Source: Salisaeta longa DSM 21114 (GTDB lineage: Bacteria > Bacteroidota > Rhodothermia > Rhodothermales > Salinibacteraceae). Taken from it: a DNA stretch of 64,000 nt. The notes beneath the pieces are model-generated. The model saw only the letters and a list, made by a program, of their open reading frames with translations, ran no database searches and was not told the origin of the DNA. The first letter of the stretch is position 1. Each line of letters opens with the position of its first letter. Shown here piece by piece: positions 23,769-31,655 of this stretch. The translations under genes were made by a program, and so were the position numbers. Where the stretch lies: positions 828,005 to 892,004 of the forward strand of contig NZ_ATTH01000001.1 of NCBI RefSeq assembly GCF_000419585.1, written 5' to 3'.

Positions 23769-25130
23769 ATGAGCGTGACGCACACCGTCCGGCGTCTCAC
23801 CCACACCCGCATCCCCACCGTTGATGGAACGTTTGCCCTTTCCCTGTACGAGAACAGCCGCGATGATAAAGACCACCTAGCCCTCGTGCATGGCGATGTG
23901 CGCGGCGCCGATGATGTGCTGGTGCGGGTGCATTCGGAATGTTTTACGGGCGACGTGCTGGGGTCGCTGCGCTGCGACTGCGGCGAACAACTCAACCGCT
24001 CCATGCAAATGATTGCGGAGGCCGGGCGCGGCGTGCTGCTGTATTTGCGGCAGGAAGGCCGTGGCATTGGGCTGCTCAGCAAGCTGCGGGCCTACGACCT
24101 GCAGGATGAAGGATACGACACGGTAGAAGCCAACCTGATGCTGGGGCACGGGGCCGACGAGCGCGACTACACGATCGGTGCCCTGATGCTTGAAGACCTT
24201 GGCGTTGCATCGGTGCGGCTGCTGACCAACAACCCCGAAAAGATTGAGAGCCTGGAGCGCCACGGCGTAACCGTCACCGAGCGCGTGCCCCTTACGCCGC
24301 ACCTCAACGAACACAACACCGACTACCTCCAAACCAAAGCCAACCGCATGCGGCACATGCTCGACCTGGGGCCGATGCCGCGCGGGCGCCACGCAAACCG
24401 CGCGGGCGCTGGATCTGCTTCCCTGCGCGAGCGCGCCCGCGCTTATTTTAAACGCAACGGTCTGCCGTTCGTAACCCTCACCTACGCGCAAGCCCTCGAC
24501 GGGTCGATTGCCGCAAGCACCGAGGAACCGCTTGCCATCAGCGGGGCGGCGGCACTCACCATGACGCACGAGCTGCGCGCGCTGCACGATGCGATTCTTG
24601 TAGGCATCGGCACGGTGCTCACCGACGACCCGCAGCTTACCGTGCGCCGTACTGAGGGCCCCAACCCGCGGCCCGTCATCCTCGATACGTCGTTGCGCAC
24701 GCCCCTCGATGCACAACTGTTGCAGGGCGACGGCCCCGCGCCGCTCATTGCCACCGACCGCTCGGCCGATCCGGCGCGCGCCGAAGCCCTCGAAGATGCC
24801 GGTGCTACCGTCCTCCGCCTCGACTGCGACGCGCAGGGCGTATGCCTCGATGCGCTCCTCGATGCCCTGGCTGACGAAGGATTGCAAAGCCTGATGGTGG
24901 AAGGCGGCCGCGAGATTATCACCAGCTTCCTTTCGCAGCAGCACGTCAATCACCTCGTCCTCACCATCGCGCCCCGCTTTGTGGGCGGCGTGCCGGCCGT
25001 GGCACCGCTCGATGTCTCGGGCGATGGCTACGCGGCGGCCACGCAACGGCTGCCCGCTCTGGAAAACATCCACTATCAATGGTACGGCACCGACCTCGTA
25101 CTGCATGGGGATCCGACGTGGGAGGCGTAG
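23769..25130 (+). CDS. GTP cyclohydrolase II fused to a RibD-type reductase domain
   Basis: 453 residues. Residues ~1-205 are GTP cyclohydrolase II (RibA): the zinc cysteines in [16 protein letters not shown], then [11 protein letters not shown] and [16 protein letters not shown] linker follows, and from about 235 a RibD C-terminal/DHFR-fold reductase ([38 protein letters not shown]). No deaminase domain is present, so the predicted order (ring opening of GTP, then reduction of the ribosyl group) is that of archaea and fungi rather than the usual bacterial RibA/RibD order. It heads a tight operon with a dehydrogenase (3-nt gap), a PTPS-like protein and a methyltransferase, pointing to a specialised pterin or pyrimidine rather than riboflavin alone. 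Confidence 0.88.
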
Positions 25131-25133
25131 GCC

Positions 25134-26156
25134 ATGGTGCAGCGCACAGCCCTTTACCATGTGGCGCCCCGGGAGGTGGAGGTGCGTACCGAGCCGTTGC
25201 CGCCTCCGGAGGATGAGGCGGTGCAGGTAAGCGTGCAGCGATCGGCCATTAGCGCGGGCACCGAACGGCTGGTGTACGAAGGCGCCGTGGCGTCGGATAC
25301 GACCGCCGACACCACGCTCGATGCCCTGGCCGAAGACATGTCGTATCCGTTTTTGTACGGATACGCCACCGTGGGCCGCGTAATTGCCTGCGGGGCTGCC
25401 GTCGACGATGCGCAGTGGCGCGGGCGCCGCGTGTTTGCCTTCCAACCACACGCTAGCCACTACAACGCTGCGCCGGACACCCTCATTCCGATGCCCGACG
25501 CCATTGCCGACGAAACGGCGCTTTACCTTCCCAACCTGGAAACCGCCACGTCGCTGGTGATGGATGCCGCGCCGCGGATTGGCGAGCGCATCGCCGTCTT
25601 TGGCGCAGGCATCGTTGGTTTGCTCACCACGCACCTGCTGGCCGATTTTCCACTCGCGGGCCTCGTGGCGGTCGAGCCGTCTGCGTCTCGTCGTCACATG
25701 GCGCAGGCGCTGGGGGCCGACGCGGCGGTTGCGCCGGGCGACACGCCGGAGGAAACGGCAGATCGCGTAGCGGCGGCACTTGGCGCCGAAGCGGACGGGG
25801 CGATTGAGGTGTCGGGTCAGCCGGCCGTGTTCTCGCAGGCCGTGCGGAGCGTCGGCTATGGCGGCCGCGTGATTGTGGGGTCGTGGTACGGAACCAAGCG
25901 GGCGCCGCTGCAGCTCGACACACACTTCCACCGAAATTCCGTGAAGATAGTGTCAAGCCAGGTGAGCACCATTGCCCCGGTGCTGCGCGGGCGATGGACG
26001 AAGGCACGACGCCTTGATTTTGTGAAGAAACAGTTGCGACAGGCGTCATTTGCCGACATTTTTTATACCCGCACGGTTCCAATTGATCAAGCATCTAATG
26101 TGTTTGATGAGTATATGTATGACAGTAAATACATACAGCTATTTCTTTCCTATTAG
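25134..26156 (+). CDS. medium-chain dehydrogenase/reductase lacking zinc cysteines
   Basis: 340 residues, MDR superfamily. A GroES-like N-terminal half is followed by a Rossmann domain with VFGAGIVGLLTTHLL and GGRVIVGSWYGTK. The catalytic zinc Cys position reads SAGTERLV and the four-Cys structural zinc loop is absent, so it is probably not a classical zinc alcohol dehydrogenase. It starts 3 nt after the RibA-RibD fusion and ends 14 nt before the PTPS-like gene; it probably oxidises or reduces the pathway intermediate. The last ~80 bp are conspicuously A/T-rich. Confidence 0.8.
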   Translation: MVQRTALYHVAPREVEVRTEPLPPPEDEAVQVSVQRSAISAGTERLVYEGAVASDTTADTTLDALAEDMSYPFLYGYATVGRVIACGAAVDDAQWRGRRVFAFQPHASHYNAAPDTLIPMPDAIADETALYLPNLETATSLVMDAAPRIGERIAVFGAGIVGLLTTHLLADFPLAGLVAVEPSASRRHMAQALGADAAVAPGDTPEETADRVAAALGAEADGAIEVSGQPAVFSQAVRSVGYGGRVIVGSWYGTKRAPLQLDTHFHRNSVKIVSSQVSTIAPVLRGRWTKARRLDFVKKQLRQASFADIFYTRTVPIDQASNVFDEYMYDSKYIQLFLSY

Positions 26157-26170
26157 AATCCTAAACACCG

Positions 26171-26560
26171 ATGTACGAAGTTCACGTAGAGCGTTCTTTC
26201 GTCGCCCAGCACTACCTCACCGTCCCCAATTGCGGTCCAGAAAATGAGTGGCATTCGCACACGTTTAAGGTCTGTCTTGATATTGCCTCTCCGTCCCTGA
26301 ATACGCACCAATATGTCGTTGACATCGACGACGTGAATCGTGCACTGGACGCCATCGAGGCGCGCTATCGCGACGTGACGCTCAACGATCTGCCGGAATT
26401 TGAGGGAAAAAATCCGAGTGTGGAATGGTTCGCGCGCTGCGTGCATGCGCAGGCGCTGGATGTGATCGAGGCGCCGCCAGAGGACGCGACGCTCACGGTG
26501 CGCATTTGGGAAGACGACACCGCCTGGGCTGCGTACACGGCCCCGATGCACGATGACTGA
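26171..26560 (+). CDS. 6-pyruvoyltetrahydropterin synthase / QueD-like protein
   Basis: 129 residues. Zinc-ligand histidines are visible at SFVAQHYL and EWHSHTF, with the nearby Cys (PNCGPENEWHSH) in the position of the catalytic Cys. The later LNDLPEFEGKNPSVEWFA matches the family's LND...NPSxExxA motif with its substrate-binding Glu. The Asp-His pair that normally precedes LND by three residues seems to read Arg-Asp, so the proton-relay His is missing. The substrate is probably a GTP-derived pterin or pyrimidine made by the enzymes encoded just upstream. The stop overlaps the methyltransferase start by 8 bp. Confidence 0.8.
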   Translation: MYEVHVERSFVAQHYLTVPNCGPENEWHSHTFKVCLDIASPSLNTHQYVVDIDDVNRALDAIEARYRDVTLNDLPEFEGKNPSVEWFARCVHAQALDVIEAPPEDATLTVRIWEDDTAWAAYTAPMHDD

Positions 26561-27497
26561 TTCTTCGGATGCGCCGTTCGATGAACCGCTGGATTATCCC
26601 CGGTACCTCACCGCAAAGGCCGCTGTCGACGAGCAGGCGCTAAGCCCGCGGGTCTGGCAGCCCTTTGTCGATTGGCTGCGTGGGCACGCGTCCGAGAAGC
26701 CCCTGCGTATCGCCGACATGGGCGGCGGCATTGGATTTACGCTGCTGCGGGTGCTTGCGGCCGTCGAGCGTCCACTAACGTACTTCTTGGTAGACGCGTC
26801 GGCTGCCAATCTTGCCCGGGCCCGGTCGAATTTGCGCAACTGGGCACAGGAGCGTGGTTTTGCGACGGAGGCGCACGACACCCCCATCACCATCCGGCGC
26901 CCGTCAGGGCACGCAACGGTGCATTTCTGCCGGGGCGATGCGATGACATGGCGGCCCCCTGATGGGGCGCCCATTCACGCGCTTGCCTCGCAGGCGCTGC
27001 TCGACTTGCTTCCGCTCGATCGCACCCTGCAGCACTGGCGGAGCCTACTGTTGAGCGACCACCGGTGCTACCTCGCGCTACTCTTCGACGGCGCAACGGT
27101 CTTCGAGCCCCCCGGCGGTTCGTTAGCTATCCAGCAACCAATCATCGACGCGTACCACCGCTCGATGGAGGCGCGACGCGTCGAGGGCGCGCCCACCGGC
27201 GGTGCCTATTGTGGGCGGCGGGTGGTGCGCTGGCTCTACAAAAACAACGCACAACTCTTCACGGTAGATTCCTCAGACTGGTCTATTCTTGGATCTACAT
27301 ATGACCCGTTATCTGACAACGAATCATTGTTCGTTCAGGTCATCGCGTCGTTCGTTAAGTCCGAAGGCCGGGCATCGGAGAAGGTGTCATCAGACATTGT
27401 AAACGAGTGGTATGACAAAATAATTGATAGCATAACTTCTGACCAAATTTATTTCCGTGCATCGCACCTTGACATCCTCGCGGCGCTCAAAAAATAA
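26553..27497 (+). CDS. class I SAM-dependent methyltransferase
   Basis: 314 residues. SAM-binding motif I is IADMGGGIGFTLLRVL (about residues 52-67) and the acidic motif II is YFLVDASAANLARAR. No close functional family recognised. It is the last gene of the four-gene operon and overlaps the PTPS-like gene by 8 bp, so it probably methylates the pathway product. From about 27240 to the stop the DNA is noticeably A/T-richer than the first two thirds, and the corresponding residues (NEWYDKIIDSITSDQIYF) look like a divergent C-terminal extension. Confidence 0.8.
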   Translation: MTDSSDAPFDEPLDYPRYLTAKAAVDEQALSPRVWQPFVDWLRGHASEKPLRIADMGGGIGFTLLRVLAAVERPLTYFLVDASAANLARARSNLRNWAQERGFATEAHDTPITIRRPSGHATVHFCRGDAMTWRPPDGAPIHALASQALLDLLPLDRTLQHWRSLLLSDHRCYLALLFDGATVFEPPGGSLAIQQPIIDAYHRSMEARRVEGAPTGGAYCGRRVVRWLYKNNAQLFTVDSSDWSILGSTYDPLSDNESLFVQVIASFVKSEGRASEKVSSDIVNEWYDKIIDSITSDQIYFRASHLDILAALKK

Positions 27498-27942
27498 ATT
27501 GAACCGGATACATGTGCGCGTTAGCTATTTTTTGTGAGGTTTCAGGGCGGCGGCCGCGTCGAAATTAGGCCGTAGCATGGCCCTTGAGAAGGCAAACGTG
27601 CGCTCAAAAATTGCCTCGCGCCGCGGCGTAGAATACGGAAGAAAACGCCGAATAGGAGCGCTACGGTTGGATTTCGGCTGCTCACTGTGCTGCCAGAACG
27701 CTCGAATCGCGCAAAATGAGAGCCGCTGAGACGCGAAAAGTTTGGCGTGTGCGTGGGGTTGTGCGATCAATCGCGCCTACGGCGCTCACGCTGAAGGCCC
27801 GAAAAACACGATCGGGCGGCCGGACCGCTTGCATTTGTTCCCCGCGCATACCCATATTCATGTGTGCAGGTTGACTTCCGATAAGATGCAATTACCGGAA
27901 GTCAGAAAACGACCGATTCGTTCATTTTATCTTCACGGTTTC
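27498..27942. other. intergenic region holding a recombinase core-like site
   Basis: 445 bp without a convincing gene; short frames on both strands have no family features. The only structure I can support is the inverted repeat at 27873-27903, annotated separately. No tRNA is visible that could serve as an attachment site. Confidence 0.5.
27873..27903. promoter_or_regulatory. putative tyrosine-recombinase core site
   Basis: GACTTCCGATAA (27873-27884), a 7-bp centre GATGCAA (27885-27891), then TTACCGGAAGTC (27892-27903). The arms are inverted copies matching at 11 of 12 positions. Twelve-base arms around a 6-8 bp overlap region are the architecture of core sites cut by tyrosine recombinases, and the site lies 40 bp upstream of such a gene. 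Assignment as its att or resolution site is inference. Confidence 0.55.
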
Positions 27943-28986
27943 ATGGAGAAAGCCTCCGGCCCCTCGTCCGCCGATTCATCGTCGCGTGCCGGCACCGATT
28001 TGCCCGCGCCCCGCGCCGACGAACACACACAACTCGCGCACCTCACCGACGCGAACGCCCGCGCGCAAGCTTTTGCGTCTAAGGCGCGCGCCGAAAATAC
28101 CAAACGCGCCTACCGCGCCGACTGGAAGCAATTCGTTGGGTGGTGCGAAGAACGCGGCGTCCGCCCGCTGCCCGCGCTCCCCAAAACCGTGGTGCTCTAC
28201 GTCTCGGCGGTGGCCGACGACTACAAGCTGTCGACGCTGGAGCGCAAGCTGACGGCCATCAGCCAAGCGCACAAAACAGCCGGCTTCGATAGTCCGGCGC
28301 TCACGGCCAAGGAACCGCTCCACTCGGTGTGGGCCGGCATCGCGCGCACCAAGTCGCGCGCCAAAGACAAGGTGGCGCCGCTCATGACCGACGAGCTGCG
28401 GATGATTGTGGATGCGCTGCCCCGCACCGACGAGAACCTTTTTACCACGCGGGCCCTGCGCGACCGCGCGCTCCTGCTCGTAGGCTTTGCCGGGGCCCTG
28501 CGCCGCAGCGAGCTCGTGGGCCTGCAGCAAGACGATGTCAATGTGACGGCCGACGGGCTTCGCCTCATCGTCCGCAAGAGCAAATCCGACCAGGAGGGCA
28601 AGGGCCTCGTGAAGGGCATCCACTACGGCAAGCACCCGCACACGTGTCCGGTGCGGGCCCTCCGCGATTGGACGCGCCGCGCTTCCATCAGCGAGGGGCC
28701 GCTCTTCCGCGGCATCGACCGGCACGGCAACATCCGCGAGCGCGCGCTTTCGGGCCGCTCGGTGGCACTCATCCTAAAGAAAGCCGTAAAGCGCGCCGGG
28801 CTGAATCCGGAGGCGTACAGCGGGCATTCGCTTCGCGCCGGTTTCACCACGCAGGCGGCGCGCGAAGGCGTGCCCGAGCGCGTCATCATGAAGCACACCG
28901 GGCACAAGTCGATCCGCATGGTGCGCGAATACATTCGCGAGGGGCAACTCTTTGACGAGAACCCGACCGACGCCCTCGGGCTCTAG
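27943..28986 (+). CDS. tyrosine recombinase/integrase (solitary)
   Basis: 347 residues from the ATG at 27943. The N-terminal SAM-like core-binding domain covers about residues 35-135 (ENTKRAYRADWKQFVGWC). The catalytic set is complete: R187 (ALRRSEL), a Lys in RKSKSDQ (212/214), H295 and R298 (HSLRAGF), H321 (HTGHKS) and the nucleophile Y330 (REYIREG). No phage, transposon or plasmid genes flank it. Its stop is 7 bp from the convergent SDR stop. It may catalyse its own mobility or the inversion/resolution of a local segment. Confidence 0.92.
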   Translation: MEKASGPSSADSSSRAGTDLPAPRADEHTQLAHLTDANARAQAFASKARAENTKRAYRADWKQFVGWCEERGVRPLPALPKTVVLYVSAVADDYKLSTLERKLTAISQAHKTAGFDSPALTAKEPLHSVWAGIARTKSRAKDKVAPLMTDELRMIVDALPRTDENLFTTRALRDRALLLVGFAGALRRSELVGLQQDDVNVTADGLRLIVRKSKSDQEGKGLVKGIHYGKHPHTCPVRALRDWTRRASISEGPLFRGIDRHGNIRERALSGRSVALILKKAVKRAGLNPEAYSGHSLRAGFTTQAAREGVPERVIMKHTGHKSIRMVREYIREGQLFDENPTDALGL

Positions 28987-28993
28987 CTAAATG

Positions 28994-29761
28994 CTACCGC
29001 ATGACCAGACCGCCGTCCACGATCAGGTTCTGGCCCGTCACGGCGCGCGCCCAGGGCGAGGCGAAGAAGAGAATCGCATCGGCCACATCCTCCGGCGCCG
29101 TCACCATCTGCAAGGGCGTCGATTCCTTGATGAGGCCAAACACTTCGTCGGAGGTCGCCGCGCTGGCGTCGGTGGTTTTGAGCAGCCCGCCCGACACCAT
29201 GTTCACGGTGATGCCCGCAGCGCCCAGCTCGTGGGCCATGTTGCGCACCCAGCCCAGCAGTGCCGCCTTGGCGGTGGTGTAGTCGTGATAGGGCACGACG
29301 GGGTTTTGGACGAGGTTTGACCCGATCGCCACAAACCGCCCGAAGCCCGCGTCTTTCATGCCGGGCAGGCACGCCTGCAGGGCATTGAGTGCGCCGCGCA
29401 CCGTACCGCTGAGCTGCTCGTCGTAGGCCGCCCAGTCGATGGTAGGCGCGCTATCGCGCGCCGCGGGGTCAAATTGGTAGTTGATGAGCGCATTGCTGAT
29501 GACGGTATGCACCGGCGCGCCGAAGTGGTCGGTGGCCTGCGTTACCATAGCGTGCACGGCATCCGGGTCGCGCACATCGGCTTGTACGGCCAACGCCTGA
29601 TCGGCGCCCAACGTGTCGGCGAGCGCCTCCGCTTTTTCGGCGCTCTGGTAGTAGTTGATGATGACGCGAGCGCCTTCGCGGGCAAAGGCCCGGGCGGTGG
29701 CGGCACCCAGTCCGCGGCTCGCGCCGGTGATGAGAACGACTTGCTCGTTGATGGCAGGCAT
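28994..29761 (-). CDS. short-chain dehydrogenase/reductase under a TPP riboswitch
   Basis: 255 residues from the ATG at 29759-29761. Cofactor motif TGASRGLG (residues 12-19), the catalytic Ser region (VAIGSNLV) and YxxxK (YTTAK) are all present; the end PEDVADAILFFAS...GQNLIVDGG is typical of FabG-like 3-oxoacyl-ACP reductases. The usual NNAG motif reads SNAL. A TPP riboswitch occupies its leader, so expression should respond to thiamine pyrophosphate. That suggests a role in thiamine or precursor metabolism rather than fatty-acid synthesis; the substrate is unknown. Confidence 0.87.
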   Translation of the reverse strand: MPAINEQVVLITGASRGLGAATARAFAREGARVIINYYQSAEKAEALADTLGADQALAVQADVRDPDAVHAMVTQATDHFGAPVHTVISNALINYQFDPAARDSAPTIDWAAYDEQLSGTVRGALNALQACLPGMKDAGFGRFVAIGSNLVQNPVVPYHDYTTAKAALLGWVRNMAHELGAAGITVNMVSGGLLKTTDASAATSDEVFGLIKESTPLQMVTAPEDVADAILFFASPWARAVTGQNLIVDGGLVMR

Positions 29762-29813
29762 ACGGCTTCGGGATACGTGAAGAAGCAATCGGTGAAGCCA
29801 GCGATGCCGCCTG

Positions 29814-29893
29814 CGATGCTTCCCTTCGCCGGTACAAGCCGGATCAGGTTCAAAGGGTCTATCTCAGCCCCGCGCGGGGCACCCCTAGCTTCG
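29814..29893 (-). promoter_or_regulatory. TPP riboswitch (THI element)
   Basis: The minus strand reads GGGGTGCCCC...GGGGCTGAGATAGACCC, then TTTGAACCTGATCCGG and GCGAAGGGAAG, carrying the invariant CTGAGA and ACCTGATC of the aptamer. P1 can form between CGAAGCT (29887-29893) and AGCATCG (29814-29820) with one mismatch; P3 is GCCCC/GGGGC. It ends 52 nt before the SDR start. The platform region contains a second GCATCGC copy that could compete for P1. No terminator hairpin with a T-run is visible, so control may be at translation. Confidence 0.93.
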
Positions 29894-30002
29894 TTTATAG
29901 GGTACAGCGGCGCCGTGTCGATTGCAACGCCTTCACAGCGGATCCATCGCCCGACGCCGCCGGTTTTCCTGGCACCGCCTTCTGCCAACCTCACGACTGC
30001 CC

Positions 30003-31655
30003 ATGCCCGAGACGACCCACGCCGGATACATCGTAGACCTTCATGCGCGCTCCATTCGTCCGGGGGTGGTGCATGTGCGCGACGGCCGCATCGCGGCCCT
30101 CGAATCTGCGGAGGACGTGCCGCATCGGTTCTTGCTGCCCGGACTCATCGACGCCCACGTACACGTCGAAAGCTCGATGCTGGCACCGTCCGAGTTTGCG
30201 CGCGCCGCCGTGCCGCATGGCACCGTCGCCACCGTCTCCGATCCGCACGAAATTGCGAACGTGTTGGGGAAGGCAGGTGTGCGCTTCATGCTGGAGGATG
30301 CGAGCCGCGTGCCCCTCAAGATCAGTTTTGGCGCGCCCTCCTGCGTGCCCGCAACGCCGTTTGAAACCGCGGGGGCCGCGCTCGGGCCCGACGACGTAGC
30401 CACGTTGCTCGACGATCCGGCCATTGGATACCTCAGCGAGATGATGAATTACCCCGGCGTTCTCAGCGGCGACGCCGAGGTGCAGGCCAAGCTGGAGGCT
30501 GCGCAGGCGCGCGGGCTGCCGGTGGATGGTCACGCCCCCGGATTGCGGGGCGCGGAGGCCGAGCGCTATGCCGCCGCGGGCATCTCCACCGAGCACGAAT
30601 GCACCACCCTGGCCGAAGCCCGCGACAAGCTGGCCGCCGGCATGCACATCCTGATCCGTGACGGCTCGGCCGCGCAAAACTTCGACGCGCTCATCCCGCT
30701 GATGGCCGAAGCGCCGGAGCGGCTCATGTTCTGCACCGACGACGCCCATCCCGATATGCTGCGCCGCGGCCACATCGACCGGCTCGTGCGGCGCGCCCTG
30801 GCGCGTGGCTACAACCGCTTCGATGTCTTGCGGGCCGCGTGCGTGCATCCGGTGACGCATTATTCCCTCGACGTAGGCCTGCTGCGCGTGGGCGATCCGG
30901 CCGATTTTATCGTGGTCGATGACCTCAACGCGTTTACCGTGCAGGCCACGTACATCGACGGGCAGCGGGTGAGCGAAAACGGCACTGCTAACTTCTCCGC
31001 CACACCCCCCGAAACGCCCAACGCCTTCCACGCCGCGCCGGTAGAACCCGCCGATCTGGAGGTCCCCGCCACCGGCGATACGCTCCGCGTCATCGAAGCC
31101 GCCGACCATCAGCTGACCACCGGCGAAGCGCACCTGCCCGCCACCATCGTGGATGGCGCGGCGGTCGCCGATCCCGCACGCGATGTTCTCAAGCTGGCCG
31201 TCATCAATCGATACGTCGACGCGCCGCCCGCAACGGCGTTTGTCCGTGGATTTGGATTGGAACGCGGCGCGATGGCATCGAGCGTCGCCCACGACTCGCA
31301 CAACGTCATTGCCGTGGGGGCAAACGACGACGCGCTCGCCCGGGCCATCAACGCCGTCATTGCCGAAACCGGCGGCATCAGCGTGGCCACGCCCGAGGAC
31401 GTGGCGTGCCTTCCGTTGCCCATTGCCGGCCTCATGAGTGCTGCGCCGTTTGAAACCGTCGCCACACGCTACGAGGCCCTCAGCCGAAGGGTGCAAGACG
31501 AGCTGGGGAGTCCGATGGAGGCCCCCTTCATGACGCTTTCGTTCATGGCGCTCCTCGTGATTCCGTCGCTCAAGCTGAGCGATCAGGGATTGTTTGACGG
31601 CGATGCGTTTGCATTCACCGATGTGTTTGTGCGGAACAAACCACCCACCGTCTAA
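30003..31655 (+). CDS. ade: adenine deaminase
   Basis: 550 residues from the ATG at 30003, an amidohydrolase of the AdeC/Ade type. Metal-binding motifs LPGLIDAHVHVESSML, VDGHAPGL and STEHECTT are present, with FCTDDAHPDML and the C-terminal domain containing VAHDSHNVIAVG and SFMALLVIPSLKL. It hydrolyses adenine to hypoxanthine plus ammonia. It is divergent from the TPP-regulated SDR. It is probably monocistronic, with the toxin-antitoxin genes 67 bp downstream. Confidence 0.95.
   Translation: MPETTHAGYIVDLHARSIRPGVVHVRDGRIAALESAEDVPHRFLLPGLIDAHVHVESSMLAPSEFARAAVPHGTVATVSDPHEIANVLGKAGVRFMLEDASRVPLKISFGAPSCVPATPFETAGAALGPDDVATLLDDPAIGYLSEMMNYPGVLSGDAEVQAKLEAAQARGLPVDGHAPGLRGAEAERYAAAGISTEHECTTLAEARDKLAAGMHILIRDGSAAQNFDALIPLMAEAPERLMFCTDDAHPDMLRRGHIDRLVRRALARGYNRFDVLRAACVHPVTHYSLDVGLLRVGDPADFIVVDDLNAFTVQATYIDGQRVSENGTANFSATPPETPNAFHAAPVEPADLEVPATGDTLRVIEAADHQLTTGEAHLPATIVDGAAVADPARDVLKLAVINRYVDAPPATAFVRGFGLERGAMASSVAHDSHNVIAVGANDDALARAINAVIAETGGISVATPEDVACLPLPIAGLMSAAPFETVATRYEALSRRVQDELGSPMEAPFMTLSFMALLVIPSLKLSDQGLFDGDAFAFTDVFVRNKPPTV

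Follow-up and report, generated by a model that had tools for sequence, protein, structure and literature searches.

The window analysed here, a 64,000-nucleotide stretch of the Salisaeta longa genome, contains a complete TPP riboswitch aptamer followed on the same strand by a gene for a FabG-like short-chain dehydrogenase (SDR):

29804..29896, minus strand: complete TPP riboswitch aptamer (RF00059), from cmscan at 74.9 bits and its core motifs
28994..29758, minus strand: SDR gene, 254 aa, of family NF006393 (PRK08642 type, annotated 3-oxoacyl-ACP reductase), from its NF006393 score, Pfam adh_short_C2 and Y161/K165

The cmscan match to RF00059 (29896-29804, minus strand, E 6e-13) spans model positions 1-105 of 105 and exceeds the Rfam gathering score of 54.3 bits; it is the single match to any RNA family across the whole window. 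Both the CUGAGA and the GAACCUGAU core lie within the aptamer. A sequence-only reading had called the aptamer from its motifs and named a poor riboswitch score as one outcome that would speak against it, with an Rfam TPP covariance-model search as the check; the full-length match above the gathering score bears that call out.

The aptamer occupies the leader position, with 45 nt between its 3' end and the SDR start codon. The SDR ORF is complete, running from the ATG at 29758 to a stop codon ending at 28994. We set aside a longer ORF from the TTG at 29788, whose start would fall within the leader, since the ATG better suits both the start typical of the family and the leader switch described below. 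Downstream is a convergent tyrosine recombinase gene (27742-28986, plus strand; Pfam Phage_integrase), its stop codon 7 nt from that of the SDR gene, and this recombinase may signal the edge of a mobile element. On the upstream side is a divergent adenine deaminase gene (29922-31655, plus strand). Because these neighbours are convergent and divergent, respectively, the riboswitch can serve only the SDR gene, as the sequence-only reading had proposed.

Beyond the recombinase gene, the plus-strand ORFs at 23769-27497 look like a pterin- or flavin-type cluster: an ORF that reads as GTP cyclohydrolase II (RibA) with a RibD-reductase-like part attached is followed by alcohol-dehydrogenase-like, 6-pyruvoyl-tetrahydropterin-synthase/QueD-like, and methyltransferase-like ORFs, all of these names except the methyltransferase being read off translations.

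The Salisaeta longa genome has four TPP riboswitches, among which the aptamer in the SDR leader scores best; the other three precede thiC, an NMT1/THI5-like gene, and tenA (names again read off translations). The NMT1/THI5-like protein (L177 652-1732; about 1836651-1837731 on C1 of its own genome) has no obvious signal peptide and no adjoining ABC transporter partner, and could be an enzyme instead of a binding protein.

The SDR and its family

The SDR matches NF006393 at 416.9 bits, well above the NCBIfam cut-off of 292, and its Pfam domain is adh_short_C2. It matches no known thi gene model, and against the FabG equivalog TIGR01830 it reaches 134.2 bits where the cut-off is 297.75; its description as a FabG-like SDR with no known thi identity therefore holds. 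These scores also weigh on the idea that the protein serves fatty-acid synthesis as a true 3-oxoacyl-ACP reductase (FabG) and is only incidentally under TPP control. NF006393 does bear that enzyme's name, and the closest solved structures are FabG enzymes, yet the TIGR01830 score is far below its cut-off, the conserved operon partners that we found are thiamine genes, and FabG-annotated SDRs often fail FabG tests (PMC13293336). We regard a FabG role as very unlikely, and gene context gives no support to the function that the family name states. The best PDB matches reach only E about 1e-30, so no close relative of the SDR has been solved. Among the 60 best is pyridoxal 4-dehydrogenase (PDB 3ndr), which similarly sets an SDR fold to work on a vitamin heteroaryl aldehyde, but which belongs to another subfamily (NF047923, which our SDR matches at 128.7 bits against a cut-off of 325) and works in the oxidative direction.

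Catalysis by the SDR should be possible, since the glycine motif (G13, G17, G19) and the Y161 and K165 of the YxxxK motif are invariant across the main NF006393 branch. A second set of invariant residues is specific to the family and absent from 11 other FabG-like SDRs: A91-L92, F97, Q116, N149-L150, Y158-H159, L193-L194, T197, S200, and Q244. Placed on the general SDR fold, most of these would lie at the substrate-binding site, and the pocket-side residues F97, Q116, L150, Y158, L193, T197, S200, and Q244 are common to the main branch and to a second branch whose members are linked to LuxE and LuxC genes.

TPP linkage across genomes

Searches of about 1,600 genomes yielded 97 NF006393 genes. 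The window's class supplied 12 of them. Within Actinomycetota, the class of Arthrobacter gave 8 and its family a further 33. Bacillota contributed 4 from a sample of the phylum and 35 from a single order, Alphaproteobacteria had 4, and Gammaproteobacteria had 1. Because the large searches scored a subset of the candidates in each genome, prevalence is a lower bound. A search of genome contigs with a single protein recovered one genuine family member, in Arthrobacter, besides 13 weaker SDR matches.

A TPP riboswitch lies upstream of the gene on the same strand in 90 of the 97 cases, across four major bacterial groups. In 64 it is direct (within 450 nt), and in 26, six LuxE-LuxC cases among them, it is farther up, heading an operon that contains the SDR gene. 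The remaining seven comprise one weak match (27.6 bits) and six genes without a riboswitch; the riboswitch-less members and a Caballeronia copy on a plasmid occupy scattered positions in the tree, suggesting loss of the riboswitch. In the window's bacterial family the riboswitch is directly upstream in all nine genomes in which the SDR was found (four of them slightly below the gathering score), which excludes chance; nor is the wider linkage a coincidence, given that genomes carry only 1 to 6 TPP riboswitches each.

Linkage of this extent suggests that the SDR gene is thiamine-related, and its control by thiamine is close to certain. A decayed or misplaced riboswitch beside an SDR unrelated to thiamine would agree with the SDR standing alone in the window and with the six relatives that have no riboswitch, but it is hardly credible when the link is kept in so many homologues over several phyla and when the aptamer in question outscores the other three in its genome.

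On a phylogenetic tree, the NF006393 proteins form one clade against the 11 other FabG-like SDRs (support 100/99). The LuxE-LuxC-linked SDRs are one group inside NF006393 (96/81), and the remaining members include the window's bacterial family as a single group (100/98). The sequence-only reading had asked whether all TPP-linked SDRs form one clade; tree members were gathered with the NF006393 model, and the answer is positive within NF006393, to which it is confined. The spread of the family over phyla suggests transfer of the SDR gene between lineages.

Operon layouts of relatives

Five operon layouts were found among the relatives. In the first, the SDR gene is alone, as in the window, and in the second it is followed by a gene for an NtaA/DmoA-type FMN monooxygenase (Arthrobacter, Pseudochrobactrum, Rhodococcus, Mesobacillus, and others). 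The third layout, thiM-thiE-thiD-SDR or thiM-thiD-thiE-SDR, occurs in Neorhizobium, Gemmobacter, genomes of the Bacillota order (with tandem TPP aptamers), an actinomycete, and a distant member of the window's class in which thiE is fused to thiL. The fourth, found in six related genomes, is tenI-thiO-thiS-thiG-thiF-SDR, with the SDR gene last and the small thiS inferred from a gap. The fifth is LuxE-LuxC-SDR, at 14 loci in Alphaproteobacteria and Bacillota:

L163, L164, L165, L167-L169, L173, L174, L192, L204-L207, L038: LuxE-LuxC-SDR loci

A TPP riboswitch lies upstream at 13 of these 14 loci. An NMT1/THI5-family binding protein related to the one at L163 is encoded at ten, and most of the operons have an NMT1/THI5-type ABC importer; L038, a 10-kb Lactiplantibacillus plasmid, carries a xanthine/uracil-type permease instead. 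Searches that started from LuxC arrived at the same layout in all nine matches, eight of them TPP-linked. The operon proteins match the Pfam superfamily models (LuxE 54 bits, LuxC 302 bits) and fall short of the NCBIfam equivalog cut-offs, with 55 bits where LuxE requires 550 and 93 bits where LuxC requires 750. They are thus homologous to the LuxC-LuxE fatty-acid reductase of luminous bacteria, which activates an acyl group and reduces it to an aldehyde, but differ from it in lying so far below the equivalog cut-offs, in being TPP-controlled, and in being followed by an SDR.

Tandem TPP aptamers, ∼155 nt apart, occur in one Bacillota order (L122-L125, L135-L137, L140, L187, and L193), where they precede thiM-thiD-thiE-SDR, thiD-SDR, or the SDR gene alone; the thiD-SDR pair at L137, behind two aptamers, has no thiM. 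In the window's family, the genes directly after the SDR gene (TsaD-like, carboxyltransferase, and amylase) were considered as pathway partners and rejected, being shared among close relatives only.

Two further observations concern riboswitches of the LuxE-LuxC operons. At L163 (6738-11132, minus strand) a second TPP riboswitch, facing the first, heads a branched-chain-amino-acid-type ABC transporter operon beside LuxE-LuxC-SDR, perhaps a further importer of thiamine or a precursor. Long TPP riboswitches of 131 to 141 nt are found at L164 (2613-2743), L182 (6694-6824), and L205 (7546-7686), a length that points to an extended P3 arm.

A predicted two-state leader

As is usual for TPP riboswitches (THI element, RF00059), the full-length aptamer lies in the leader of the regulated gene; the differences here are that this gene is an SDR instead of a listed thi gene or transporter, and that a start-codon switch is predicted from three leader elements:

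29885..29892, minus strand: P1 5' strand GAAGCUAG, with which the switch segment can pair as one of two options, from folds with the aptamer free and forced, with relatives similar
29794..29808, minus strand: switch segment GGCAUCGCUGGCUUC, predicted to pair with the P1 5' strand without TPP and with the start-codon region when the aptamer has formed
29757..29769, minus strand: pre-start element GAAGCCGU and start codon AUGCC, predicted to be sequestered once the aptamer has formed

With the aptamer left free, the optimal leader fold joins the P1 5' strand to the downstream CUGGCUUC; with the aptamer pairs forced, the CUGGCUUC segment instead pairs with GAAGCCGUAUGCC and the start codon is buried. 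Forcing the aptamer lowers the mean unpaired probability for the start region from 0.35 to 0.03; of 300 shuffled leaders, none reached so low a value in the aptamer-formed state, and 1.3% changed by as much. A segment of the CUGGCUUC type recurs in relatives, with the aptamer P1 strand or a GAAGCC beside the start codon as its alternative partners, and the triad of P1 strand, CUGGCUUC-like segment, and GAAGCC-like pre-start element can be read in most of nine leaders from the window's family. In a second, per-leader test over those leaders, the fraction of shuffles as good ranged from 0 to 0.23 and was 0.21 for the window's own leader; for the window alone, the leader statistics are weak in one of the two tests. 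Taken by itself, a single fold of the whole leader does not exceed shuffled sequences in stability (z -0.21), so only the two-state comparison is informative.

A simple scan of 28700-30100 found no intrinsic terminator and no sigma-70 promoter, and with no terminator there, control by termination is unsupported. The folds predict that TPP represses translation of the SDR (an OFF switch). When TPP is scarce, the switch segment would be bound to the P1 strand and the start codon would be more open; when TPP is bound, P1 would form and the freed switch segment would pair with GAAGCC/AUG, turning translation off.

Proposed function

The lux system makes aldehydes from acids in two steps, ATP-dependent activation of the acid by LuxE-type proteins and reduction of the acyl group by LuxC-type proteins, so that an SDR encoded after them would be a natural aldehyde-to-alcohol step. 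Thiamine salvage in turn depends on two alcohols, HMP for ThiD and THZ for ThiM, and these kinases are the other operon partners of the SDR. We therefore propose, with moderate confidence, that the SDR is an NADPH-dependent reductase that converts a thiamine-precursor aldehyde to the alcohol used by ThiD or ThiM, HMP being the likelier product, under a translational OFF riboswitch. The riboswitch, the gene, its TPP linkage across phyla, its operon partners, the single clade, and a leader able to switch are all computed; from these we infer the reductive direction, the aldehyde substrate, the cofactor, and the choice of pyrimidine over thiazole, with cofactor and substrate argued from relatives.

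The likelier substrate would be 4-amino-2-methylpyrimidine-5-carbaldehyde, yielding HMP, and the alternative a thiazole acetaldehyde, yielding THZ. In the sister branch a carboxylic acid would be activated by the LuxE-like protein and reduced to the aldehyde by the LuxC-like protein, leaving the SDR to form the alcohol. In monooxygenase-linked members, oxidative dealkylation by the NtaA/DmoA-type enzyme could yield the same aldehyde, as guessed from the chemistry of its family, and in the window's organism the lone SDR would act on aldehyde already present. The substrate may differ between branches, since proteins of the LuxE-LuxC branch share only 43-50% identity with the SDR of the window.

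We favor the pyrimidine because the transporters nearby are of NMT1/THI5 or nucleobase type, because L137 has thiD and the SDR gene without thiM, and because the other TPP-controlled genes of the window's genome are thiC, tenA, and the NMT1/THI5-like gene. A relative of the nucleobase transporters carries HMP (PMC5874261), and the carboxylic acid of this pyrimidine is a thiamine catabolite in rat urine, going by an entry in the reference list of PMC7780320 (Neal and Pearson 1964).

The thiazole side offers a rather unlikely alternative, in which the SDR would supply ThiM with THZ by reducing 4-methylthiazole-5-acetaldehyde that arises from damaged thiamine or thiazole acetic acid. It keeps real weight because of the fourth layout, where the SDR gene ends operons of thiazole-synthesis genes, and thiM is present in most thi-type SDR operons; however, thiD is equally frequent and once occurs without thiM, and the transporter types of the LuxE-LuxC operons also speak against the thiazole. 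The fourth layout favors neither an aldehyde nor the pyrimidine and counts against our preferred explanation, reductive salvage, as does the finding that neither LuxE-LuxC nor a monooxygenase adjoins the SDR gene in the window's genome.

The frequent occurrence of the SDR gene alone, and an FMN-monooxygenase partner that could handle xenobiotic-like compounds, would also suit a repair or detoxification enzyme that reduces or oxidises damaged or toxic thiamine analogues or by-products and takes no part in salvage. Under TPP repression, however, thiamine scarcity is what would bring the SDR on, a pattern more in keeping with supply than with protection, and the LuxE-LuxC, thiM, thiD, and importer partners likewise fit supply; we consider a repair or detoxification role improbable.

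Reductive salvage by the SDR has a parallel in the TenA/ThiXYZ route for formylaminopyrimidine, which is also a TPP-controlled recovery of HMP from thiamine breakdown products, and the window's genome too has a TPP-linked tenA and NMT1/THI5-like gene; the chemistry differs, being hydrolytic deamination there and reduction as proposed here.

More tentatively, the family may mark an unrecognised TPP-controlled salvage pathway, in which the carboxylic acid left by breakdown of a thiamine moiety, probably the pyrimidine, would be imported, activated by the LuxE-like protein, reduced to the aldehyde by the LuxC-like protein, and converted by the SDR to HMP; the lone SDR of the window would then be the last step, retained by itself.

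Rodionov et al. reportedly listed, in 2002, an oxoacyl-reductase-like gene linked to THI elements, oarX, so that the pairing of riboswitch and SDR is of a kind already known. Like the gene of the window, oarX is reportedly a FabG-like SDR behind a THI element; the LuxE-LuxC, monooxygenase, and tandem-riboswitch layouts are not known to belong to that listing. Within the limited set of papers covered, a literature search on the oarX name with thiamine, or on the TPP riboswitch with FabG-type names, returned nothing on the SDR gene, and a search for TPP-controlled LuxE-LuxC-SDR operons found no mention of them; this operon may be new. We know of no settled role for the widespread TPP-controlled SDR. 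The operon evidence turns that role into a concrete prediction of chemistry, from acid to aldehyde to alcohol, with named substrates, and its LuxE-LuxC part is what makes the function of the SDR testable. If the prediction is true, oxidised fragments of vitamin B1 that are now counted as waste would be a vitamin source that many bacteria can use.
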